A stretch of DNA of 64,000 nt from Xanthomonas sp. 3793 (GTDB lineage Bacteria; Pseudomonadota; Gammaproteobacteria; Xanthomonadales; Xanthomonadaceae), in contig NZ_JANTYU010000004.1 in NCBI RefSeq assembly GCF_024806835.1, forward strand, positions 434,001 to 498,000. Direction: 5' to 3'. The notes under the pieces are model-generated. The model was not told the DNA's origin. It made no database searches and was given only the letters and a program-made list of their open reading frames with translations. Position 1 is the stretch's first letter; each line of letters starts with the position of its first letter. The position numbers were made by a program, and so were the translations under genes. This document shows positions 3,649-20,328 of this stretch, piece by piece.

Positions 3649-5544
3649 ATGCCAACGAATTACTCACGAGCCCAAGTGCTCGACATCATCGAACGCGAAG
3701 CAGCCGAGCGAAATATCCCGCGCGATGACTTCCTGCGGTTTGCCCACGTAGAGACCGGCGGTGCCTTTGACGAGCTGGCCAGCCGCGGAGCCGCTGGTGC
3801 CAAGGGGCTATTTCAGTTCACTCCTCCGACCGCTGCACAATACGGCATCGCTGGACGCGAGTTGGATGCAGTGGTCAACACCGACGCGGCAGCGCGGCTG
3901 TATCTGGATAATCGGACCAGCCTGGTTGACCGGCACGAACGCGATGGCCGGCCTTACCTGTCGGGCAAACCAGTGCCCGATGGCCTGGACATGTACATGG
4001 CCCATCAGCAGGGCGCGAGTGGTTACCGCTCTCTTCAGACCGCGATCGCCACAGGATCTTTCGGGCTTGAGAGCACTCGCGCCAACATCCTCAACAATGT
4101 TGGCGAGAAAGAACTGAAGTCTCTGACAGGTGTCGATTCGGCGACGTTCCAGCGCATGTCGGACAAGGACATGGCACAGACGTTCGTGCAGTACTGGGAT
4201 ACGAAGATGGACCGCATCCGTATCCCTGAAAAAGGCATTGAGCCCATTTCGGCCACGCAGCAGCAGGCACCGTCGCAAACCGCACCATCGCAGTCCGCAG
4301 CCGCACAGCCGGAGAAAGCTGCAGCGCATGGCATCGCGCTCCACGCCGCCTATGACCTCACCAACAAATACGACCACGTCAAGTACGGCATGGGCGCGAA
4401 GGATCCAGACAAAGGGAGGGTCGATTGTTCTGGCTGGGTGGTCGAGATGCAGAATGCGACCATGGGTGAAATCAACGAGGGCGCCGGCAAGGTCATCTTC
4501 ACCAAGGACGAAAAGTTCAGCCCTGGTTTCGATAGTGCATCCGAATTGCTACGCAAGGCCGAACAACGCTCCGGCGTCCTGATCCAAGGCAAGGACGTCG
4601 CTGCCCAGAACCTCAAAGAAGGCATGATCATCGGCGAGGACAATGGGTCACTGGGGTGGGACAAAGGGCGCTACAAGGGCATCGACCACATCACCATGGT
4701 GGTGCGCGATCCCAAGGATGGCGAGCTCAAGATCAGCCAATCGCGTGGCGGTGAGGGCGTCGAGCTCAGCTCGCTGGATACCTACCTTGAACGCAAGCAC
4801 GCCAAGGGCGTCAAGCTCTATGCCAGCGACCCGCTTTCCGAAGCGCGCGACTTGCTGCAGGACCGCAACCAGAGCAAGCAACAATCTCACGACAGCGACG
4901 CGCACAAACCCGCGCATGCGCAGGATGCGGTACAAACATCCGGCGTGCTGCGCGAAAAGGCGCATGGCGCTGAAGTTCTGAAGGTGCAGCAGACCTTGCA
5001 GCAGTTGGGCTACAGGGACGCAAAGGGCAACGAACTCAACTCCGACGGCGCCTATGGCCAGCGGACGGGTGAGGCGGTCAAGGCCTTTCAGCGTGCGCAC
5101 GGACTGCAGGATGATGGCGTCGTCGGCGGCGATACGCTCAAGGCACTGAAGCAAGCCGAGAAGACGCCGTTGCTGTCGGAAAAAACCAATCCCGATAATC
5201 CGCTGTACAACCAGGCCGTGAGCAAGCTGGAACAGCTGGGTCCGAATTCGTTCGCCGACCGTCGCGCGTTGGAGAATGCAGCGGCTTCATTGGCGTTCGA
5301 AGCCAAGGTCAGCGGTCTGCAGCGCATTGACGCGGTGATACTGAGCAAGGACGGCACCGGATTGTTCGCTGTACAGGGTCAGCCAAACGACCCGGCGCAC
5401 CAGCGGATCTATACGGACAAGGCAGGCGCTGCAGAACGCCCATTGGAGCAAAGCAGCAATGCCGTACGACAGGACGCGCAGTCGCAAACGCAGGTCCAGG
5501 ATCAGCAAGAACTGCAACGCAGCCAGGCACGCCAAGTCGGCTGA
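3649..5544 (+). CDS. X-T4SS antibacterial effector: transglycosylase + NlpC/P60-like + PG-binding + XVIPCD
   Basis: A 631-residue protein with four recognisable parts and no signal peptide. Residues about 5-190 resemble a lysozyme-like lytic transglycosylase (HVETGG with candidate catalytic Glu35, then GAKGLFQFTPPTAAQYGI). Residues about 225-395 look like an NlpC/P60 cysteine peptidase (DCSGW with Cys260, and DHITMVV with His347). Residues about 435-510 are a PG_binding_1 domain (LKVQQTLQQLGY, TGEAVKAFQRAHGL). Residues about 525-620 match the XVIPCD signal of effectors of the Xanthomonadales type IV secretion system (NPLYNQAVSKLEQLG, FAVQGQPNDPAHQ) and end in a Gln-rich tail. Secretion through the T4SS into rival bacteria explains the missing signal peptide. 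The two predicted enzymes would cut glycan and peptide bonds respectively; neither activity is proven here. Confidence 0.9.
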   Translation: MPTNYSRAQVLDIIEREAAERNIPRDDFLRFAHVETGGAFDELASRGAAGAKGLFQFTPPTAAQYGIAGRELDAVVNTDAAARLYLDNRTSLVDRHERDGRPYLSGKPVPDGLDMYMAHQQGASGYRSLQTAIATGSFGLESTRANILNNVGEKELKSLTGVDSATFQRMSDKDMAQTFVQYWDTKMDRIRIPEKGIEPISATQQQAPSQTAPSQSAAAQPEKAAAHGIALHAAYDLTNKYDHVKYGMGAKDPDKGRVDCSGWVVEMQNATMGEINEGAGKVIFTKDEKFSPGFDSASELLRKAEQRSGVLIQGKDVAAQNLKEGMIIGEDNGSLGWDKGRYKGIDHITMVVRDPKDGELKISQSRGGEGVELSSLDTYLERKHAKGVKLYASDPLSEARDLLQDRNQSKQQSHDSDAHKPAHAQDAVQTSGVLREKAHGAEVLKVQQTLQQLGYRDAKGNELNSDGAYGQRTGEAVKAFQRAHGLQDDGVVGGDTLKALKQAEKTPLLSEKTNPDNPLYNQAVSKLEQLGPNSFADRRALENAAASLAFEAKVSGLQRIDAVILSKDGTGLFAVQGQPNDPAHQRIYTDKAGAAERPLEQSSNAVRQDAQSQTQVQDQQELQRSQARQVG

Positions 5545-8046: not shown

Positions 8047-9876
<1,830 letters not shown>

Positions 9877-9915
9877 AGGGACAGCTCATTTGGAAAGAAG
9901 ACCGGCATTTTAGCG

Positions 9916-9988
9916 TGTCCGCTCTTGTCCACTGCATGACCGTGCCCGGACAGCGTGTCCGCGCGGGTGTCCGCGGACACTGCGGACA
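9916..9988. promoter_or_regulatory. Array of TGTCCG half-sites, probable enhancer for the sigma-54 promoter
   Basis: Six TGTCCG/CGGACA half-sites sit in 73 bases. They include a gapped dyad CGGACA-GCG-TGTCCG (9947-9961) and a perfect 14-base palindrome GTGTCCGCGGACAC (9967-9980), with single half-sites at 9916 and 9983. Dyad centres lie about 87 and 107 bases upstream of the predicted start at 10061, the usual distance for activators of sigma-54 polymerase. The likely ligand is the NtrC-family protein encoded at the end of the operon (inference). Confidence 0.7.
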
Positions 9989-10033
9989 CTCGCCGCATTG
10001 GCAAGAATACCTTTGATATCAGCCACTTGGAAT

Positions 10034-10050
10034 CTGGCACGCGGCGTGCT
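10034..10050 (+). promoter_or_regulatory. Sigma-54 promoter of the ABC-exporter/two-component operon
   Basis: CTGGCACGCGGCGTGCT matches the sigma-54 consensus (TGGCACG-N4-TTGCW) at all but one key position, with GG (10036-10037) and GC (10048-10049) exactly 10 bases apart. The predicted transcription start is near 10061. That rules out translation from an earlier in-frame start at 10059 and points to the ATG at 10083. Confidence 0.8.
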
Positions 10051-10082
10051 TTGTCAGCATGACGCCACCGAGCACGCCGACC

Positions 10083-11354
10083 ATGATTCGTGACACCTCT
10101 GCCCAGGACCAGGTTCTTCGTACACCCGCCGGCAACGCGCCGTGGCGTCGCTGGCTGTGGCCCGGCGTCGCCAGCGTGGCGGTATTGGCCGGCATCGGTT
10201 GGGCGATCACTGCCTGGAGCGCCGGCAGCCGCTCCTTCGATGCCAGCCGGGTACGCATCGCCACGGTCAGCCAGGGCGACCTGGTGCGCGACATCGCCGC
10301 CGACGGCCGCGTCATCGCCGCCAACAGCCCGGTGCTGTACGCCATCTCGGCCGGTACGGTGACGCTGAGCGTGGTGGCCGGCGACGTGGTCAAGCAGGGC
10401 CAGGAGCTGGCGCGCATCGACAGCCCGGAGCTGCGCAGCAAACTGGCGCAGGAGCAGGCCACGCTGGCCGGGCTGGAAGCCGAGTCCAGCCGCGCCGGCC
10501 TGGATGCCACGCTCGCCCGCGCAACCGCCAGCAAGCTCACCGACCAAGCCAAGATCGACAAGCAGGCCGCCGCACGCGACCTGGAGCGCTACCAGCGCGG
10601 CTTTGATGGCGGCGCCGTGCCGCAGGTGGAACTGGCCAAGGCGCAGGACACCCTGAAGAAGACCGACATCGATCTGCAGCATGCCGAGCGCGACGCATCG
10701 TTGAAGAGCCAGGGTGCGGACCTGGATTCGCGCAACAAGCGCCTGCTGGCCGACCGCCAGCGCGCGGTGGTGGCCGAAGTGCAGCGCCAGGTCGATGCGC
10801 TCACCCTGCTGGCGCCGTTCGACGGCCAGGTCGGCCAGGTGCAGGCGGTGCAGCACACCCAGGTCGCGGCAAACGCGCCGATCCTGGGCGTGGTGGACCT
10901 GTCCAAGTTCGAAGTCGAGATCAAGGTACCGGAAAGCTTCGCGCGCGACCTCGCCATCGGCATGCCGGCCCAGCTCACCAGCGGCAGCGGCGAGCCGTTC
11001 CCCGGCGCCATCTCGGCGGTGTCGCCGGAAGTGGTCAACGGCGAGGTCACCGCGCGCATCCGCTTTGCCGACAAGCAGCCGCCGGGCCTGCGCCAGAGCC
11101 AGCGCATGAGCGCGCGGGTGGTGATGGATACCCGCCGCAACGTGCTCAAGGTCGAACGTGGCCCGTTCGTCGAACAATCCGGCGGCAGCTACGCCTACGT
11201 CATGGACGGCAACACCGCGGTGCGCCGACCGGTGCGCATGGGTGTCAGCAGCCTGGGCGAGGTGCAGGTGCTGTCCGGCCTGCAGGTCGGCGACCGCGTG
11301 GTGGTGTCCGGCGCAGACAACTTCGGGGATGCACCGCGCGTCACCGTTCACTAG
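10083..11354 (+). CDS. Membrane-fusion (HlyD/MacA-type) periplasmic adaptor of an ABC exporter
   Basis: 423-residue RND/HlyD-family adaptor. A single N-terminal membrane helix (residues about 20-40, WLWPGVASVAVLAGIGWAIT) is followed by a barrel/lipoyl half (GRVIAANSPVLYAISAGTV), a long alpha-helical hairpin (about 115-230), the second lipoyl half (LLAPFDGQVGQVQAVQ) and a beta-barrel domain with VKVPES-like sequence. It should link the permeases in the inner membrane to the periplasm or an outer-membrane channel; no channel gene is present nearby. The start follows from the sigma-54 promoter position. Confidence 0.9.
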   Translation: MIRDTSAQDQVLRTPAGNAPWRRWLWPGVASVAVLAGIGWAITAWSAGSRSFDASRVRIATVSQGDLVRDIAADGRVIAANSPVLYAISAGTVTLSVVAGDVVKQGQELARIDSPELRSKLAQEQATLAGLEAESSRAGLDATLARATASKLTDQAKIDKQAAARDLERYQRGFDGGAVPQVELAKAQDTLKKTDIDLQHAERDASLKSQGADLDSRNKRLLADRQRAVVAEVQRQVDALTLLAPFDGQVGQVQAVQHTQVAANAPILGVVDLSKFEVEIKVPESFARDLAIGMPAQLTSGSGEPFPGAISAVSPEVVNGEVTARIRFADKQPPGLRQSQRMSARVVMDTRRNVLKVERGPFVEQSGGSYAYVMDGNTAVRRPVRMGVSSLGEVQVLSGLQVGDRVVVSGADNFGDAPRVTVH

Positions 11355-11455
11355 AAACGATAACCCTGCAGCCTCCACACCCCGGCGACTACGCGCCACG
11401 TCCCAGCCGTCACGCTCAATCTCTTTCGCACACCTCTCTCGCAAAGGACTCGGCA

Positions 11456-12175
11456 ATGCTCAAGATGCAATCGGTCTCCAAGGTCTTCCGCACCGAACAG
11501 GTGGAAACGCACGCACTGCGTTCGCTGGACCTGCATGTGCGCGAAGGCGAATTCGTCGCCGTCACCGGCCCCTCCGGCTCGGGCAAGACCACCTTCCTCA
11601 ACCTGGCCGGGCTGCTGGAAACCTTCACCAGCGGGCAGTACCTGCTCGACGGCGAAGACGTCAGCCATCTGTCCGACGACGCACGTTCGCGGCTGCGCAA
11701 CCGCAAGATCGGTTTCATCTTCCAGGGCTTCAACCTGATTCCCGATCTCAACCTGTTCGACAACGTCGATGTGCCGCTGCGTTATCGTGGCATGGCGGCG
11801 GCCGAGCGCAAGCAGCGCATCGAAGAGGCCCTGACCAAGGTCGGCCTGGGCTCGCGCCTGAAGCACTACCCCACCGAGTTGTCCGGTGGTCAACAGCAGC
11901 GCGCCGCCATTGCGCGTGCACTGGCTGGCAGTCCACGTTTGCTGCTGGCTGACGAACCCACCGGCAACCTCGACTCGCAAATGGCACGCGGGGTGATGGA
12001 ACTGCTGGAAGAGATCAACAGCCAGGGCACCACCATCGTGATGGTCACCCACGACCCGGAACTGGCCGCACGCGCGCAACGCAACGTCCATATCGTCGAC
12101 GGTCAGGCCACCGATCTGGAACGCAACCCCGCGCTGATGCGCTCGCGCGACAGCGCACCTACCCTGGCCGAGTAA
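11456..12175 (+). CDS. ABC transporter ATP-binding protein (LolD/MacB class)
   Basis: 239-residue ATPase of the MacB/LolD/FtsE class. It has Walker A GPSGSGKTT (residues 38-46), signature LSGGQQQR, Walker B LLLADEP followed by TGNLDS, and the switch VTHDPELA. An AAAGGA ribosome-binding site precedes the ATG. It is the only ATPase in a cluster with four permease genes, so it may serve more than one permease pair. The 101-base gap after the adaptor gene shows no separate promoter that I can defend. Confidence 0.95.
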   Translation: MLKMQSVSKVFRTEQVETHALRSLDLHVREGEFVAVTGPSGSGKTTFLNLAGLLETFTSGQYLLDGEDVSHLSDDARSRLRNRKIGFIFQGFNLIPDLNLFDNVDVPLRYRGMAAAERKQRIEEALTKVGLGSRLKHYPTELSGGQQQRAAIARALAGSPRLLLADEPTGNLDSQMARGVMELLEEINSQGTTIVMVTHDPELAARAQRNVHIVDGQATDLERNPALMRSRDSAPTLAE

Positions 12176-12187
12176 GAGGCACATCCC

Positions 12188-13486
12188 ATGTTCGGCTACT
12201 ACTTCAATCTTGCGTTACGCAGCTTCCGCCGCAACAAGGTGCTGACCGCGCTGATGGTGCTTGCGATCGCGCTGGGCATCGGCGCCAGCATGACCACCTT
12301 GACGGTGTTCTATGTGCTATCGGGCGATCCGATTCCGCAGAAGAGCGATCGGTTGTTCAGCGCCTTGGTGGACCCATACCCCAAGGCAGGCTACCAGCCG
12401 GGAGAAGAGCCTGGCGACCAGGTCACTCGCTTCGATGCCGAAACGCTGCTGCGCGAAAAGCGTGCAAAACGGCAAGCGCTGATGACTGGTGGAAGAGTGG
12501 CGATCGAGCCCGACAAGAATGGTATGACTGCCTTCAAATCGGAAGTGCGCTTTACATCGGCAGATTTCTTCCCGATGTTCGAAACGCCTTTCCTGTATGG
12601 CCAAGGCTGGTCGGCAGGTAGCGACACGGGGCACGAACGCGTTGCGGTGATCACCAAGGAGCTCAACGACAAACTGTTCGACGGCAGCAACAGTGTCGGC
12701 CGTGACCTGCGCATGGACAAGAACACATTTCGTATCGTTGGCGTTCTCAATGACTGGAAAGTCAATCCACGTTTCTATGATGTCAGCAACACCTACGGCT
12801 CGAGCGAGCAAGTGTATCTGCCGTTCTCCGTCGCAATGGATCTGAAGATGGATCATTACGGCAGTATCAATTGCTATGGCAAGAACGACAGCGACCAGAC
12901 AGCGCTCAACGCACCCTGCACATGGATGCAGTATTGGTTGGAGCTCGACAGCCCCGCGCAGGCTGGCGACTACAAAGCCTACCTGGATAACTACTCCGAT
13001 CAGCAGCGCGCTGCAGGGCGTTTTGAACGTCCGAACAATACCCGCCTACGCAACGTGATGGAGTGGCTGGACTACAAGGAAGTGGTCCCTAGCGACGTCC
13101 GCCTGCAGCTATGGCTGGCGATGGGCTTCCTGCTGGTGTGTCTGCTCAATACCGTAGGTTTGCTACTTGCCAAGTTCCTGCGCCGCAGTGGAGAGATCGG
13201 TGTGCGTCGCGCCCTGGGTGCCTCACGCGGTGCCATCTTTGCGCAATGCCTGGTCGAAGCCGGAACCATCGGACTTGCAGGCGGCATTGCAGGGCTTGGG
13301 CTGGCATGGTTGGGGCTGTGGGTCGTGCGCCAACAACCTGTCGACTACGCCAAGCTTGCGCATCTGGATCCGAAGATGTTGTTGCTCACCTTCGCATTGG
13401 CGCTCGTTGCCAGCTTGCTGGCCGGCTTGCTGCCCTCCTGGCGTGCCATCCAGGTTGCGCCTGCGCTGCAGCTCAAAGCGTCCTGA
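12188..13486 (+). CDS. MacB/FtsX-type ABC permease, pair A subunit 1
   Basis: 432-residue permease with the MacB layout: membrane helix near residues 18-45 (MVLAIALGIGASMTTLTVF), a large periplasmic core to about residue 300, then three C-terminal helices forming the FtsX domain (AMGFLLVCLLNTVGLLLAKFLRRSGEIGVRRALGAS). The GEIGVRRALGA segment is the coupling helix contacting the ATPase. It starts 12 bases after the ATPase gene. It resembles the 14817-16145 product across its whole length, notably at both ends. Confidence 0.92.
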   Translation: MFGYYFNLALRSFRRNKVLTALMVLAIALGIGASMTTLTVFYVLSGDPIPQKSDRLFSALVDPYPKAGYQPGEEPGDQVTRFDAETLLREKRAKRQALMTGGRVAIEPDKNGMTAFKSEVRFTSADFFPMFETPFLYGQGWSAGSDTGHERVAVITKELNDKLFDGSNSVGRDLRMDKNTFRIVGVLNDWKVNPRFYDVSNTYGSSEQVYLPFSVAMDLKMDHYGSINCYGKNDSDQTALNAPCTWMQYWLELDSPAQAGDYKAYLDNYSDQQRAAGRFERPNNTRLRNVMEWLDYKEVVPSDVRLQLWLAMGFLLVCLLNTVGLLLAKFLRRSGEIGVRRALGASRGAIFAQCLVEAGTIGLAGGIAGLGLAWLGLWVVRQQPVDYAKLAHLDPKMLLLTFALALVASLLAGLLPSWRAIQVAPALQLKAS

Positions 13487-13541
13487 CCACCAAGCCCGCC
13501 GCCCTGCGGCGGGCACGGCCTCTTATCCGAAGGTACCGCCC

Positions 13542-14774
13542 ATGGACATCCGCCCCATCATTTCCACCCTGCGCCGTCACAAGACCGCGTCAGCATTGAT
13601 CGTGCTCGAGATCGCACTCGCCTGCGCCATCATCTGCAATGCCATGTTCTTGATCGGCAACCGCATCGAGACGCTGCAGCAACCCAGCGGCATCGCCGAA
13701 TCGGAACTGGTCAGCGTCCAATTGGGCGGCATCGGCACCCAGGTCAATGCAGAAGCGCGCACACGCGAAGACCTGGCTGCACTGCGCAGCCTGCCAGGTG
13801 TCCGCAGCGCGATCGTCATCAATCAGATTCCCTTTGTGCATTACTCATGGAACAGCAGCATCTCCCTGACGCGTGAACAAGAGCGCCAGACACTTAGCGC
13901 TGCGCAATACATGGCCGGTGAAGGCACCCTCGGCACACTTGGCCTGCAACTGGTCGCAGGGCGTGACTTCACCGCAAGTGAATTCATCGACATGGCACAG
14001 GCCAATAACGACAGGTCCATCGACCAGAAAGGCCTTTCAGTGATCATCACTCGGCGCATGGCTGACAAGCTGTTCCCCTCGCAAAATGCATTGGGAAAGA
14101 CAGTCTATGCAGGCGATACCGCACTCCACATCATCGGCATCGTGCAGACACTGGCACGCCCCACCAACGATAGCGCCGGCGGTGTTGATCAAAGCAATTA
14201 CTCGATGTTGCTACCACTGCGCATCGACTACACCGCAGGCCAGTACATTATTCGTGTCACCGATCCAACGCGTCGGGCAGAGGTGCTGCAATCTGCCGTC
14301 GCTGCGCTGATGAAATTAGACAATAGCCGGCTGGTCCTGAAACAGCAGACGTATAGCGAAATCCGCACGGAATATTTCGAGAATGATCGCGCAATGGTGT
14401 GGCTACTTGGCGCGGTCTGTATCGCACTGCTGATCGTCACCGCACTGGGCATCGTGGGCTTGGCCAGCTTCTGGGTGCAGCAGCGTACCAAGCAGATCGG
14501 CATTCGCCGCGCACTGGGCGCCACGCGTGGCCAGATCCTGCGCTACTTCCAGATCGAGAACTTTCTGCTGGCCTCGGTCGGTATCGTGCTCGGCATGCTG
14601 CTGGCTTACTCAATCAATATCTGGCTGATGGCCCGCTACGAATTGCCACGCCTGCCGGTGCTGTATCTGCCGATCGGCGCGCTCACGCTGTGGGTACTGG
14701 GCCAGATCGCGGTGTTCTGGCCCGCACGTCGCGCGGCGTTGGTGCCGCCGGCAGTGGCCACGCGCAGCGCGTGA
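13542..14774 (+). CDS. MacB/FtsX-type ABC permease, pair A subunit 2
   Basis: 410-residue FtsX-family permease: N-terminal helix (LIVLEIALACAIICNAMFLIG), periplasmic core with LVAGRDF, then C-terminal helices ending ARRAALVPPAVATRSA. The coupling segment is KQIGIRRALGATRGQI. The ATG at 13542 follows GAAGG; the upstream in-frame extension overlaps the preceding permease and is rejected. It is a clear paralogue of the 16147-17382 product. Confidence 0.92.
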   Translation: MDIRPIISTLRRHKTASALIVLEIALACAIICNAMFLIGNRIETLQQPSGIAESELVSVQLGGIGTQVNAEARTREDLAALRSLPGVRSAIVINQIPFVHYSWNSSISLTREQERQTLSAAQYMAGEGTLGTLGLQLVAGRDFTASEFIDMAQANNDRSIDQKGLSVIITRRMADKLFPSQNALGKTVYAGDTALHIIGIVQTLARPTNDSAGGVDQSNYSMLLPLRIDYTAGQYIIRVTDPTRRAEVLQSAVAALMKLDNSRLVLKQQTYSEIRTEYFENDRAMVWLLGAVCIALLIVTALGIVGLASFWVQQRTKQIGIRRALGATRGQILRYFQIENFLLASVGIVLGMLLAYSINIWLMARYELPRLPVLYLPIGALTLWVLGQIAVFWPARRAALVPPAVATRSA

Positions 14775-14816
14775 GGTGACACAGATGCTGATCGCCACCC
14801 GCAAAGGCCTTCGGTG

Positions 14817-16145
14817 ATGTTGCGCTACTGCCTGCAACTGGCCTGGCGCAGCCTGTTGCGCACTCCGGTTGCCAGCGGCCTGATGGTGCTGGCAATCGGG
14901 CTGGGAATCGGTGCAAGCATGACCATGCTGACGGTCCTGCATGTCATGTCGCGCGACCCGCTACCAGGCAGGAGTCAGACGCTTTACACCCCGCACCTGG
15001 ATCCGCTGCCAAGGGATCTTCCACGCTCGCGGGAATGGGCCGACCCGTCGGACAATCTGACCTGGCCAGATGCGATGGCCTTGCTGCACGCCGGTCCGGC
15101 TGTCCATCAAGCCGCAATGGCGAGCGGGCAGTCGCTGATCTGGCCGGTACAGGCTGCCAACACTCCGCTCGACCTCAACGGCCGCTATGCCACTGCAGGG
15201 TTCTTTGCGCTGTTTGGCATCCCGCTGCAACGTGGGGGCAGCTGGAGCAGGCAGGACGACCAGGACCACACGCGCGTGATCGTGTTGAGCCAGACACTTG
15301 CAAACACCTTGTTCGGTTTGCGCGATCCGATTGGCCAGACCGTCGCCGTCGGCGAGCAGCGCATTGGCTTTCGCGTGATCGGCGTCATCGGCAAATGGAA
15401 TCCGCAACCGCTGTTCTATGCCGATCCAAGCCGCAAAGGCGCCTTTGGCGACCAGGACGATTTCTTCCTGCCGCTCTCAACGGCGATGGAGCTGAAGCTG
15501 GACGCAGGCACCAGCATCAGCAGCTGGGACCCGCACAGCGACAATGACGTCAAACATCTGCAGAGCCCCTCTACCAGCTGGCTGCAGTTCTGGGTGCAAT
15601 TGGATACCCCGCAACAAGTGGCCGCATACCAGCGTTTTCTCTACGACTACGCCGCAACCCAACATGCCAGCGGGCGCTTTCAGCGGCCACCGCAGACCGC
15701 CCGACTGTATTCGTTGATGGACTGGCTGCAACACCTGCAGATGGTGCCCGACGATCTGCGTCTGCAGACACTGCTGGCCTTGGGGTTCCTGTGGATCTGC
15801 CTGATCAACGTGATCGCCTTGTTGCTGGCCAAATTCCTGCGCCGCAGTGGCGAGATTGGCGTGCGACGTGCTCTTGGCGCACGCCGCGGCCACGTGATGT
15901 TGCAGTTTGGCACTGAAGCGGTACTGATCGGCGTCGTGGGTGGCCTGATGGGAACCGCGATCGCCGAGGCGGGGCTCTGGAGCGTGCGCCAGCGCCCCGA
16001 CGACTATGCCGGCTTGGCCCACCTGGATGCGCCAATGCTGCTGACCACCGTGGCGCTTGCCATCGTCGCCGCCCTGCTTGCAGGACTGCTGCCGGCCTGG
16101 CGGGCCAGCCGTATCAACCCGGCCCTGCAGGTCAAGGACCTCTGA
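14817..16145 (+). CDS. MacB/FtsX-type ABC permease, pair B subunit 1
   Basis: 442-residue permease, paralogous to the 12188-13486 product: the N-terminal LMVLAIGLGIGASMTMLTVLHV and C-terminal FLRRSGEIGVRRALGARRG almost repeat it, while the periplasmic core differs strongly. The ATG at 14817 is preceded by AAAGG; a GTG one codon earlier is also possible. The gap to the preceding gene is about 40 bases. The divergent periplasmic domain suggests a different ligand or sensor surface from pair A (inference). Confidence 0.92.
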   Translation: MLRYCLQLAWRSLLRTPVASGLMVLAIGLGIGASMTMLTVLHVMSRDPLPGRSQTLYTPHLDPLPRDLPRSREWADPSDNLTWPDAMALLHAGPAVHQAAMASGQSLIWPVQAANTPLDLNGRYATAGFFALFGIPLQRGGSWSRQDDQDHTRVIVLSQTLANTLFGLRDPIGQTVAVGEQRIGFRVIGVIGKWNPQPLFYADPSRKGAFGDQDDFFLPLSTAMELKLDAGTSISSWDPHSDNDVKHLQSPSTSWLQFWVQLDTPQQVAAYQRFLYDYAATQHASGRFQRPPQTARLYSLMDWLQHLQMVPDDLRLQTLLALGFLWICLINVIALLLAKFLRRSGEIGVRRALGARRGHVMLQFGTEAVLIGVVGGLMGTAIAEAGLWSVRQRPDDYAGLAHLDAPMLLTTVALAIVAALLAGLLPAWRASRINPALQVKDL

Positions 16146-16146
16146 G

Positions 16147-17382
16147 ATGCGTCTGCCATTGCGCCCGATTCTTTCCAGCCTGGGACACCACCGCCTTACC
16201 GCCGGGCTGCTGGCCCTGCAGGTGGCGCTGACCTGCGCATTCGTCACCAATGCGGTGTTCCTGATCGACGACCGCATCGAAAGGCTGCGCACGGCGACCG
16301 GCTTGCCCGAAGACGAAGTGGCGCTGGTCAGCGTTCGCGGCCTGCACGCCAAGGCCGATGCGCCAGCGCAATGGCAGGCCGACCTGATCGCGCTGCGCGG
16401 CATTCCCGGGGTCACGGCGGCCACCGCAATCGGAGCGACGCTGCCGTTGTCGGGCGGCGCGGACGACAGCGGCATCTGTGCCGACAAACGCGCACTGGAG
16501 CGCGCAATCGCCCTGCGATCCAGCGGCGCGGCCGGCTGCGTCGACGCCAGCTACTACAGCGGCTCGCCCGGTTTCGTGCGGGCCATGGGCGCGCGCCTGA
16601 TCGCCGGCCGCGATTTTCGTCCGGACGAGTATTCCAGCGCCACGCCGGGCACGATCATCGTCACCCGCTCGCTGGCGCAACAACTCTGGCCAGATCAGGG
16701 GGCCGTCGGCAAAACGCTGTACGCATGGGATAGCCAGAGCACCGTCGTCGGCGTGGTGGAGGATCTGCTGCGGCCAAGGCTGCGCAAGCCCGAGCTCGAT
16801 CATCTGGTGGCCTTGTCGCCGCAGTTGCCTACCGGCAATCAGACGCACTATCTGGTACGCAGCGCGCCGGAAGACCGCGATCGCGTACTGGTGCAGGTGG
16901 CCGGCGTGCTGGCCAGGTCAGGTCCGTTGCGGATGATCCCGGAAGACAAGCAACGCAGTTTTGCGCAGATACGCGCGCGCTACTTCCAACGCGATACGAC
17001 GATGATCGGCCTGTTGCTTGCCGCGACCACGGGATTGCTGTTTGTCACCGCCCTGGGCATCGGAGGACTGGCCAGTTTCTGGGTCCAGCAGCGGACGCGA
17101 CAGATCGGTATCCGTCGTGCCATCGGTGCAACCCGTGGCGATATCCTGCGTTACTTCCAGGCGGAAAACCTGCTGATCGTCGGCAGCGGCAGCGCCTTGG
17201 GCATGCTGTTGGCAATGCTGCTCAACCAATGGCTGATGCTCCGTTACGACGCGGTGCCCCTGCCGCCGCTTTACTTACCAGCCGGTGCGGTGACCGTGCT
17301 GCTGCTCGGCCAGCTTGCGGTGCTGTGGCCTGCACGACGCGCTGCGACAGTGGCCCCGGCGATTGCCACACGCACTGCATGA
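16147..17382 (+). CDS. MacB/FtsX-type ABC permease, pair B subunit 2
   Basis: 411-residue permease starting one base after the previous stop. It has helix LLALQVALTCAFVTNAVFLI, periplasmic core with LIAGRDFRPDEY, coupling segment RQIGIRRAIGATRGDIL and C-terminal helices ending PARRAATVAPAIATRTA. It parallels the 13542-14774 product in order and sequence, so the operon carries a duplicated subunit pair. Three Cys residues in the periplasmic core (GICADKRA, AAGCVDAS and one at the helix end) are not shared with pair A. Confidence 0.92.
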   Translation: MRLPLRPILSSLGHHRLTAGLLALQVALTCAFVTNAVFLIDDRIERLRTATGLPEDEVALVSVRGLHAKADAPAQWQADLIALRGIPGVTAATAIGATLPLSGGADDSGICADKRALERAIALRSSGAAGCVDASYYSGSPGFVRAMGARLIAGRDFRPDEYSSATPGTIIVTRSLAQQLWPDQGAVGKTLYAWDSQSTVVGVVEDLLRPRLRKPELDHLVALSPQLPTGNQTHYLVRSAPEDRDRVLVQVAGVLARSGPLRMIPEDKQRSFAQIRARYFQRDTTMIGLLLAATTGLLFVTALGIGGLASFWVQQRTRQIGIRRAIGATRGDILRYFQAENLLIVGSGSALGMLLAMLLNQWLMLRYDAVPLPPLYLPAGAVTVLLLGQLAVLWPARRAATVAPAIATRTA

Positions 17383-17490
17383 GGCGCCCGGCCTGCCGGA
17401 TGCCGGCACGACAATCCTGCCTGCTGCTGCGATGATGCGATCTGTCTGCCTCCTCCGTCCGTTCGCCCTCGCACTCCAACAAGGTTCCCG

Positions 17491-18834
17491 ATGCCGCAGA
17501 TCCTGATCATCGACGACAACACCGCGGTAGCCACCGCGCTGGAGGTGCTGTTTTCCTTGCACGACATCGAGGCGCGGCACGCGCATTCGCCGCAGGCCGG
17601 ATTGGCGCTGCTGGACGAGCAGGCGTTCGACCTGGTGATCCAGGACATGAATTTCACCGCCGACACCACCTCCGGCGAGGAAGGCGAAGCGTTGTTCGCC
17701 CAGATCCGTCAGCGCCACCCGGACCTGCCGGTGATCCTGCTCACGGCCTGGACTCACCTGGGTAGCGCGGTCGGGCTGGTCAAGGCGGGCGCCGCCGATT
17801 ACATCGCCAAACCGTGGGACGACAACAAGCTGCTCACCACGGTCAACAACCTGCTGGAGCTATCCGAAGCGCGCCGCGAGCTCGCGCGCCGCCGCGAACG
17901 CGAGCACCGTGGTCGCGAGCAACTGACACAGCGCTACGATCTGCGCGGCGCGGTGTTCGCCGACCCCGCCAGCGAACGCGCCATCGCGCTCGCCTGTCAG
18001 GTCGCACGTTCGGAGTTGCCGGTCCTGATCACCGGCCCCAACGGCAGCGGCAAGGAGAAGATCGCCGAGATCATCCAGGCCAATTCGGTCAACAAGCGCG
18101 GCCCCTTCATCGCGCTCAACTGCGGCGCCCTGCCGGGCGAATTGATCGAGGCGGAATTGTTCGGTGCCGAAGCCGGCGCCTACACCGGTGCCAACAAGGC
18201 GCGCGAAGGCAAGTTCGAAGCGGCCGACGGCGGCACGCTATTCCTGGACGAAATCGGCAATCTGCCGCTGGCCGGCCAGATGAAATTGCTGCGCGTGCTG
18301 GAAACCGGTCGCTATGAGCGGCTGGGCTCCAACCGCGAGCGCCACGCCAAGGTGCGGGTGATCAGCGCCACCAATGCCGATCTGCCGTCGATGATCCGCG
18401 ACGGCAGCTTCCGCGAGGACCTGTATTACCGTCTCAACACGGTGGAAATCGCGCTGCCCGCCCTGGCCGAGCGCCCGGGCGACATCGCGCCACTGGCCGA
18501 GCACTTCCTGGCAGGCGGCAAACCGTTGTCTGCGCAAGCACGCGATGCGCTGCAGCGACACGCCTGGCCGGGCAATGTGCGCGAGCTGCGCAACGTGCTG
18601 CAACGTGCGTCGCTGCTTGCGCAAGGCGCGCGGATCGAAGCGAGCGATTTGAACCTGCCGCGCGCCACCGCAGCGCGGCCGGTGGCGGCAGTCGCCGGCG
18701 AGCCGGATCGCGCACGCATCGAACAGGCCCTGGCGCGCGCGCAAGGCGTGATCGCACAGGCCGCTGCCGAACTGGGACTGAGCCGACAGGCGCTGTACCG
18801 GCGTATGGACCGTTACGGCATCAGATCGGAATGA
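17491..18834 (+). CDS. Sigma-54-dependent response regulator (NtrC family)
   Basis: 447-residue activator. The receiver domain (residues 1-120) has phospho-acceptor Asp52 in VIQDMNF and LLTAW/AKPW switch residues. The AAA+ domain (about 155-385) has Walker A GPNGSGKE (182-189), the sigma-54 contact loop GAYTGA (229-234) and FLDEIGN. The C-terminus is a Fis-type helix-turn-helix ([21 protein letters not shown]). GAYTGA instead of GAFTGA is a known conservative variant. The stop overlaps the kinase start (ATGA). The promoter and half-site array at the head of the operon are its probable target. Confidence 0.96.
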
Positions 18835-20195
18835 CTGCGCGCATGTGGCATCGCTCCTTCACGTTCACCCTGTTTCTAAGGCTGTTGCCGGTGCTTGCAC
18901 TGGCCGCCGCCCTGCCGTGGTTCATGGCGTACTGGCTGGATCGCGGCTGGCAGGTCGCTGCGATTTCGGTCGTCGTTGTGCTGGCCGCGATGTGGTTCAG
19001 CCTCATCCGCGCCACCGCGCCGATGCGCTCGCTGTTCCGCGCCCTGGCCGGCACCACCAGCAGCTACCGCGATGGCGAATACAACTTCGGCGTGTACTGG
19101 CGCGGCAGCGACGAACTGGCGCAACTGGTGCAGGCGCATTCCGAACTGGGCGATGTGCTGCGCGCGCAGCGACGCGACCTGGTGCAACGCGAGTTGATGC
19201 TCGACACCATGCTGCAGAACACCCCCGTGGCAATGCTGCTGGTGGTCGCTGGCGGCGATGGCCTGCGCCGCATCGGGTTTTCCAACAACGCCGCGCGCAA
19301 GCTATTGCATGACGGACGCAAGCTCGAAGGCCAGCATCTGGACGACGTGCTCGAACGCATGCCAGGCGAACTGCGCGATGCGCTGGCGCGTGGCGGCGAC
19401 TGCCTGTTCGCGGTACGCGAGGACGGTGATGACGAGGACGACGAGCAGATCTATCACCTGTCGCGGCGCAGCTTCCACCTCAATGGCCGCGGCCACGAGT
19501 TGCTGCTGATCCGCACCCTGACCACCGAGTTGCGACGGCAGGAAGTGCAGACCTGGAAAAAGGTCATCCGCGTGATCAGCCATGAATTGAACAACTCGCT
19601 CGCACCGATCGCCTCGCTGGCGCATTCCGGCGCCGAGCTGCTGCGCCGCGAGCGCACCGACCGTCTGGGCACGGTCTTCGAAACCATCGAAGAGCGCGCG
19701 CGTCATCTGGAAGGCTTCATTCGCGGCTACGCGCGCTTTGCCAAGCTGCCGCAGCCGCAATTGCAGACCATCGAATGGGCGCCGTTTCTCGAACGGCTGC
19801 GACAACAGATCCCGTTCCAGTTGCAGGGCGAGATCAGCAGTGTCAGCAGCCGCATCGATGCAGCGCAGGTCGAACAGGCCATGCTCAATCTGCTCAAGAA
19901 TGCACACGAGGCCTGCAGCGAAGCGCAACCGCCCAATAGCGAGGTTGCAGTGCGCGTGACACGCTTACCGCAGTGGCTGCGGATCGAAGTGCTCGACCGT
20001 GGCAATGGCATGAACGAAGCGGTGCTGCACAATGCATTGATGCCGTTCTATTCGACCAAACGCAATGGAACCGGGCTGGGGCTTGCGCTCACCCGCGAGA
20101 TCGCCGAAGCGCATGGCGGGCGTATTTCGCTGCATAACCGCGAGCAAGGCGGCCTGTGCGTGACCTTGTTGCTGCCGTCGGCATCGGCTGCATAG
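18831..20195 (+). CDS. Sensor histidine kinase (NtrY/NtrB-like), partner of the sigma-54 regulator
   Basis: 454-residue membrane kinase with two N-terminal helices (residues about 12-60) separated by only a short periplasmic loop, a HAMP/PAS-like region to about 235, the phospho-acceptor box VISHELNNSLAPI with His251, and an HATPase domain (NLLKNAHEAC; GTGLGLALTREIAEAHGG). The near-absence of a periplasmic domain suggests sensing through the membrane or through the MacB-like permeases, as in Bce/Bcr-type modules (inference). Overlaps the regulator gene by 4 bases. Confidence 0.95.
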   Translation: MTARMWHRSFTFTLFLRLLPVLALAAALPWFMAYWLDRGWQVAAISVVVVLAAMWFSLIRATAPMRSLFRALAGTTSSYRDGEYNFGVYWRGSDELAQLVQAHSELGDVLRAQRRDLVQRELMLDTMLQNTPVAMLLVVAGGDGLRRIGFSNNAARKLLHDGRKLEGQHLDDVLERMPGELRDALARGGDCLFAVREDGDDEDDEQIYHLSRRSFHLNGRGHELLLIRTLTTELRRQEVQTWKKVIRVISHELNNSLAPIASLAHSGAELLRRERTDRLGTVFETIEERARHLEGFIRGYARFAKLPQPQLQTIEWAPFLERLRQQIPFQLQGEISSVSSRIDAAQVEQAMLNLLKNAHEACSEAQPPNSEVAVRVTRLPQWLRIEVLDRGNGMNEAVLHNALMPFYSTKRNGTGLGLALTREIAEAHGGRISLHNREQGGLCVTLLLPSASAA

Positions 20196-20328
20196 CCAGA
20201 CATTTTCGACCCGTCCAACGCCTCGTCCAGCGCAGCTCACTGATCGGTCGCCAGGCCCGGCAAGACCACCCCGCCGCGCGGACACCGAGTGTAAGAACGC
20301 GCACGCCCGCCCTGCCACCACGGCGCCG

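Follow-up and report, generated by a model that had tools for sequence, protein, structure and literature searches.

The region at 9916-10049, which lies between the divergent gene glmS and an ABC transporter operon, very probably controls an autoregulated sigma-54 module, as judged from its sequence and that of its relatives. All coordinates refer to the window, that is, the whole stretch of 64,000 nucleotides from Xanthomonas sp. 3793 that was analyzed. Comparison with related genomes supports the reading of 10035-10049 as a sigma-54 promoter, as well as the linkage of the upstream half-site array to the regulator encoded at the end of the operon, and self-amplification of the operon's own sensor is plausible. 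Control of sigma-54 promoters by NtrC-type regulators is known; no description of this operon's motif was found in the literature searched, and its predicted secreted-protein target is unexpected. Overall, the observation made in the original prediction was confirmed, and its interpretation was partly supported.

Half-Site Array and Sigma-54 Promoter

Seven TGTCCR/CGGACA half-sites are present at 9916-9988. Six of these are perfect TGTCCG/CGGACA copies starting at 9916, 9947, 9956, 9968, 9974, and 9983, exactly the number that had been predicted, and we add an imperfect seventh, TGTCCA (9926-9931, forward strand; identity 0.93), which reads TGTCCG in some relatives. An identity of 1.0 in 10 aligned Xanthomonas loci was found for TGTCCG at 9916-9921 (forward strand), CGGACA at 9947-9952 (reverse strand), and TGTCCG at 9956-9961 (forward strand). 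Two further half-sites, with identities of 0.98 and 1.0, form the 14-base palindrome GTGTCCGCGGACAC at 9967-9980, which was verified to be perfect, as claimed. The promoter-proximal half-site CGGACA at 9983-9988 (reverse strand) is located 52 bp above the -24 element and is the positionally fixed one. Measured from the -24 element, the half-site starts thus lie 52-119 bp upstream, equivalent to 78-145 bp upstream of the predicted transcription start at 10061. Six perfect half-sites fall within 73 bp; when the entire window was simulated 200 times with a Markov model, the highest count was three. Window-wide, half-sites are slightly above chance (54 vs. 44.6), and 10 of 100 shuffles reached 54. 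The dyad TGTCCGCGGACA had been proposed as a searchable signature of the regulon, a role that it cannot fill with a single occurrence in the whole genome; paired half-sites (TGTCC-N0-20-GGACA), searched for genome-wide, were hardly commoner than the reversed control (82 vs. 76). A workable signature is CGGACA approximately 50 bp above a -24/-12 element. A plasmid collection searched with the control region returned no match.

The -24/-12 promoter TGGCACGCGGCGTGC is located at 10035-10049 on the forward strand, with T10050 directly 3' of TGGCACG-N5-TGC; it had been placed at 10034-10050, and the element is indeed present, with its true start one base later. The sigma-54 consensus is given as TGGCACN5TTGCW in an excerpt of PMC7280030, and relative to TGGCAC-N5-TTGC, the TTGC part of TGGCACGCGGCGTGC differs at one base. 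In the window, TGGCACGCGGCGTGC is one of two zero-mismatch matches among 143 with at most two mismatches, and since 182 such matches were expected, the promoter motif by itself does not exceed chance density; the case therefore depends on the array and on how well it is conserved. The genome encodes two RpoN DNA-binding domains. A start at 10061 excludes the ATG at 10059 as the initiator of the first gene and is compatible with the ATG at 10083 (MIRDTSAQD), for which a MIRDTS-like equivalent start exists in relatives.

Genes of the Operon and Its Neighbours

On the forward strand, the promoter is followed by genes for a periplasmic adaptor (membrane fusion protein; 10083-11354, start moved from 10059; TIGR01730, E 5.4e-39), a LolD/MacB/DarD-like ABC ATPase (11456-12175), the MacB/FtsX-type permease P1 (12188-13486), the FtsX-type permease P2 (13539-14774), the second-pair permeases P3 (14814-16145) and P4 (16177-17382), an NtrC-type response regulator (17491-18834), and a sensor histidine kinase (18831-20195), with the ATPase, permeases, and kinase assigned by profile matches. 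The regulator has the features of the NtrC family, namely a receiver (PF00072), an AAA+ domain (PF00158) with a GAFTGA-type loop, here GAYTGA, and a Fis-type helix-turn-helix (PF02954). Across 83 regulators, the loop was GAYTGA in 74 and GAFTGA in three, with no match or no extraction in six. Only one of the 15 PF00158 matches in the genome (11 strong and four weak, hence ten strong ones besides the operon's regulator) lies in the window, at 17491-18834, which bears out the prediction that this is the only sigma-54 activator there. Within 9800-20500, neither internal sigma-70-like promoters (0) nor terminator-like sites (5 vs. 6.7 expected) exceeded chance, which fits transcription as a putative single operon.

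The divergent neighbour is glmS (8047-9876, reverse strand; TIGR01135, E 1.8e-259), for which TAAAAT at 9907-9912 (reverse strand) is a possible -10 element that adjoins the outermost half-sites; the corresponding ATTTTA is kept in 10 of 10 aligned Xanthomonas loci. The convergent neighbour is an open reading frame at 21394-22788 (reverse strand) that we take to be glmU, with a homologue in most relatives' stretches. Elsewhere in the window, an open reading frame at 3649-5544 (forward strand) presumably resembles an antibacterial type IV secretion effector of the Xanthomonadales that includes peptidoglycan-related parts. Assignment of the transporter to the DarBCD darobactin exporter was rejected because its scores are below the NCBIfam equivalog cut-offs (DarD 264.3 vs. 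375 bits; DarC 50.4 vs. 450).

Conservation of the Control Region

A regulator orthologue (E <= 1e-110) was found in 212 of 247 family genomes and in 48 of the 54 genera sampled. We compared the surroundings of 60 regulator loci in the family in 15.3-kb stretches. Genes for adaptor, ATPase, regulator, and kinase were all present in 57 of these, and 43 had glmS and glmU in addition, some missing neighbours being due to stretches that ended too early. Permease pairs per locus range from one to at least four.

TGGCAY-N6-TGC was found in 66 of 69 orthologous promoter regions (all except L059, L091, and L140). Half-sites in the 150 bp upstream numbered 5.46 per promoter versus 0.63 expected, with a minimum of three (set A, n = 65), although related genomes are not independent samples and such counts exaggerate how many independent events there were. 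One of the 66 (L028) was too short for half-site counts, and set A left out four of the 60 family loci (L024, L029, L030, L066) and 10 of 22 other loci (L124, L128, L130, L133, L134, L135, L138, L141, L142, L143), either because these lacked an adaptor start or because the start fell beyond the fetched stretch or belonged to a distant homologue. The nearest CGGAC was 49-52 bp above the -24 element in 49 of the 65 promoters, and the base after CGGAC was A in 71% and G in 26% of half-sites. As a control, TGGCAY-N6-TGC sites elsewhere in these loci (19 in all) averaged 0.37 half-sites, none having three or more. The starts of adjacent half-sites are mostly separated by 3-12 bp, in some cases by far more, and several orientations occur, so that no single dimer site can be named. 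Within the genus, half-sites were 98.7% and -24/-12 bases 95.6% identical, as compared with 67.3% for the rest of the spacer (nine relatives, excluding the window's own row; 98.8% for half-sites and 70.5% for the rest with the window counted). The region thus has repeated, conserved sites 50-150 bp upstream that co-occur with an activator, as in an enhancer array.

The consensus for integration host factor (IHF) is WATCAANNNNTTR, and an IHF-like site with one mismatch to it, TATCAGCCACTTG, lies between array and promoter at 10017-10029 (forward strand). With at most one mismatch, such a site occurs in 46 of 65 orthologous promoters versus 1.39 expected, nearly always at one of two adjacent positions, and at the promoters of a second target described below in 13 of 27 (set B, vs. 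0.94 expected) and 44 of 77 (named set, vs. 2.69). It is absent from 19 of 65, 14 of 27, and 33 of 77 promoters, respectively, and its columns within the genus are 72.6% identical, little above the 67.3% of the spacer (nine relatives).

Outside the family, relatives in the same order with regulators 64-69% identical (L125-L127, L129, L131, L132, L136, L137, L139), as well as L090 from elsewhere in the class (61%), have the promoter with three to seven half-sites, and glmS was not found in the fetched stretches of any of these loci. At greater distance, the sigma-54 site of L142 (regulator 46% identical) is free of half-sites, and that of L143 (44%) has four. These comparisons bear on the idea that the array is chiefly an operator for the divergent glmS, with the sigma-54 promoter being incidental. 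That idea draws on the two outermost half-sites abutting the possible glmS -10 element and on the divergent position of glmS within the stretch in most of the 60 family loci. We consider it highly improbable, given that the array also occurs at operon promoters in stretches where glmS was not found, that the proximal half-site keeps its distance to the -24 element, and that the same array and spacing recur at the promoter of an XAC0231-family gene. A form of dual control, which is compatible with the autoregulated sigma-54 module, deserves more weight, albeit as a possibility that we hold to be somewhat unlikely: the regulator may act on both divergent units, activating the operon and altering glmS expression by occupying 9916-9931. 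The outer pair adjoins the possible glmS -10 element and both of its half-sites are conserved in the genus, whereas in many of the more distant genera, as judged by eye, the pair has not been retained at this position.

Linkage of the Array to the Operon's Regulator

In 60 family genomes, CGGACA-N30-58-TGGCAC-N6-TGC yielded 95 matches versus 30 for the reversed control. A match was present in 44 of 51 genomes with the regulator (presence set at E <= 1e-110) versus three of nine without it (one-sided Fisher p = 0.002, uncorrected for relatedness). We inspected 14 matches from 13 genomes, mostly ones not beside a mapped regulator. Six were adaptor operons of the same type (L234, L237, L241, L244, L245, L246), including two of the three matches in regulator-negative genomes (L237, L245). 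One of these two genomes is rated 72% complete; either the linkage is imperfect or assemblies are incomplete. Small open reading frames with signal-peptide-like starts, unlike the XAC0231 repeats and with trmL in the locus, were seen at L233, L238, and L240, and other small open reading frames without trmL in the locus at L235, L239, and L243. At L236 and L242, sigma-54-like sites that have one and three half-sites immediately precede other adaptor genes, HlyD-like by eye; these are possibly paralogous modules.

One family locus, L066, has kept the regulator and kinase, with transporter genes not found between glmS and the regulator. Its 848-bp glmS-regulator gap contains no sigma-54 element and no perfect half-site, only two five-base cores, and it shows that the regulator pair is able to persist without the array. 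The same gap (10153-11000 of L066) carries repeated CGTCATCCCCGCGAA-type elements. A regulator orthologue with an in-frame TGA was seen in another genome of the same genus as the window (G092:C324:11860-13173).

Because the motif was assigned by co-occurrence and linkage, and because the genome has eleven strong PF00158 matches, the array might be bound by a sigma-54 activator other than the one encoded in the operon. We regard this as quite unlikely: the half-site/promoter pattern co-occurs with this regulator, which is encoded in the same operon; L066 lacks transporter and array jointly; and the SRQALYRR stretch of the Fis-type domain is conserved in most extracted orthologues. The operon's own regulator remains the favoured ligand of the array.

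Predicted Second Target: An XAC0231-Family Repeat Protein

A genome search for the regulon had been suggested. The dyad was of no use for it, and the half-site, fixed spacing, and sigma-54 element together led to one further target. In the own genome, GGACA-N25-55-TGGCA-N7-TGC was found at 15 places versus five for the reversed control; two correspond to the ABC operon, one lies on contig C7 with several half-sites upstream, and the other 12 have zero or one half-site in the 150 bp upstream. A looser pattern, CGGAC-N34-54-TGGCANG-N5-TGC, gave five matches, three of which are the ABC operon and C7 promoters, and was no commoner than its control (five), so that the search was not exhaustive and targets with other geometry could exist.

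The C7 promoter is located 162 bases upstream of a gene for a 153-residue protein that has, by eye, a signal-peptide-like start and repeats of the type TLxAVQVRPSAEQ. The gene next downstream is presumably trmL, and all 30 and all 80 homologous loci of the two comparison sets described below contain a trmL-like gene. The repeat protein was assigned to the XAC0231 family (NCBIfam NF052303, cut-off 140 bits) via its homologues L149 (218.7 bits; 93% identical to the own-genome protein) and L111 (152.9 bits). Pfam scans returned no family, only weak scattered matches, and a PDB profile search returned one match at E 0.59; the predicted structure of one homologue had a mean pLDDT of 59 and a pTM of 0.16, a confidence so low that we claim no fold. 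A homologue also occurs in a record titled Bacillus subtilis (L216), which is perhaps a contaminated or mislabelled assembly. No paper mentioning XAC0231 was found in the literature searched, which lacks most subscription journals.

Relatives of this protein were chosen by protein, not by promoter, and the promoter is therefore a fair test for them. Of 149 genomes, 33 had a match, and 30 family loci were picked by protein similarity. A sigma-54 site was present in 27 of the 30, which form set B, with 4.63 half-sites in the 150 bp upstream versus 0.54 expected, and the nearest CGGAC was at 48-50 bp in 24 of the 27; set B omits L104, L122, and L123, the last having a site beyond the distance rule. 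In the named set, comprising the best 80 of 93 loci and nearly all from Xanthomonas and Stenotrophomonas, 77 had a sigma-54 site, never more than one per locus, with 4.84 half-sites versus 0.53 expected (n = 77) and the nearest CGGAC at 48-50 bp in 74; L158, L164, and L168 had no site, and L199 had a site and no half-sites. Some species are probably represented in both sets.

The leader of the second target contains GGTGT-N14-ACACC in 75 of 77 named loci. This sequence corresponds to GGTG-N16-CACC, the motif that PMC6746942, in excerpt, attributes to a YtrA-like regulator of Xanthomonas citri with reference to Zhou et al. 2017. Searched for in the own genome with at most two mismatches, GGTG-N16-CACC was found in the leader (zero mismatches), near a short GntR gene (one), and at one more place (two). 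At L230 (approximately 863-1525, contig C2 of the own genome), a short GntR-like gene is followed by an ABC ATPase-like open reading frame and has a site of this type upstream; both genes were identified by eye, with GntR-type profile matches below cut-off. The second target thus probably also has a repressor site for a YtrA-type GntR protein, as predicted from the motif, and the likeness to the X. citri regulator concerns this target only, not 9916-10050. HpaR1 was rejected as the source of the leader motif, as neither a motif nor GTGTA was found in the excerpt of PMC4730234.

Proposed Mechanism

In the proposed mechanism, an envelope signal is presumably detected by the kinase, which would then phosphorylate the NtrC-type regulator. 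Dimers or higher oligomers of this regulator would occupy several CGGACR/YGTCCG half-sites, of which the proximal one lies at a nearly fixed distance of approximately 50 bp above -24, and the DNA separating the array from the promoter is presumably bent by IHF. Remodeling of the sigma-54 polymerase at 10035-10049 by the regulator would allow transcription of the genes for adaptor, ATPase, MacB/FtsX permease pairs, regulator, and kinase, which would add positive feedback. The same regulator would activate the second sigma-54 promoter, which precedes the gene for the secreted-looking XAC0231-family repeat protein near trmL, with the leader of this gene probably also bound by the YtrA-type GntR repressor.

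Relation to Known Systems

Among the closest known systems is GlrR/QseF (with GlrK/QseE) at enterobacterial glmY, which likewise combines an NtrC-type regulator, a sigma-54 promoter, TGTC...GACA half-sites, and putative IHF sites; its consensus is TGTCN10GACA according to an excerpt of PMC8745638. The glmY of that system acts on glmS. In contrast, the half-sites here are TGTCCR copies in arrays with other spacings, and the target is an ABC operon that holds the regulator gene. Membership in GlrR was rejected: the regulator scored 279.5 with the NCBIfam GlrR model versus a cut-off of 763, and no forward-reverse pair at a start-to-start distance of 14 was among the common adjacent spacings listed.

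BceAB-type systems, in which a transporter with a MacB-like permease goes together with a two-component system that responds to extracellular antibiotics (PMC5985334, in excerpt), resemble the present operon in joining such a transporter with a two-component system; the present operon differs in encoding an adaptor and in having an NtrC-type regulator at a sigma-54 promoter. A survey in 2025 reported sigma-54 promoters to be enriched at COG0577 in gamma-proteobacteria, Opitutia, and Bacteroidia (PMC12316311); the excerpt of that survey named neither a binding motif nor a cognate regulator, nor did it name a secreted-protein target. Our literature searches, which covered titles and abstract starts and few subscription journals, returned no description of the operon or its motif among the matches listed, and the matches listed for the six-base half-sites were unrelated by title and abstract start.

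Permease Variation and Significance

The permease cassette (12188-17382; L012-L020) is far more variable than its flanks. In L012, which is of the same species, one permease pair replaces two, with P1 82% and P2 77% identical, as against 100% for the adaptor, 99.2% for the ATPase, 99.3% for the regulator, and 99.8% for the kinase. Divergence peaks in the middle parts of the permeases. Another genome of the genus, L015, has the two-pair permease form in common with the window, at 89-97% identity. One speculative and rather doubtful extension is a two-target envelope circuit in which transporter and XAC0231-type protein are paired, the latter as a substrate, ligand, or source of a signal peptide, and the permease pairs differ in number and sequence among close relatives, as in an arms race or substrate polymorphism. 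If this pairing is true, the small secreted-looking open reading frames near trmL in L233, L238, and L240 would be fast-evolving counterparts.

Our comparisons predict a small regulon, comprising an envelope ABC transporter and a secreted repeat protein under dual control. They provide a concrete, transferable cis signature, CGGACA approximately 50 bp above a -24/-12 element and often with an IHF-like site between them, that belongs to a two-component envelope system for which no description was found. They also suggest a regulatory home for the XAC0231 family, which has so far had only a locus-tag name. As an NtrC-type activator and a YtrA-type site would meet at one gene, the inducing signal may be testable with one reporter.
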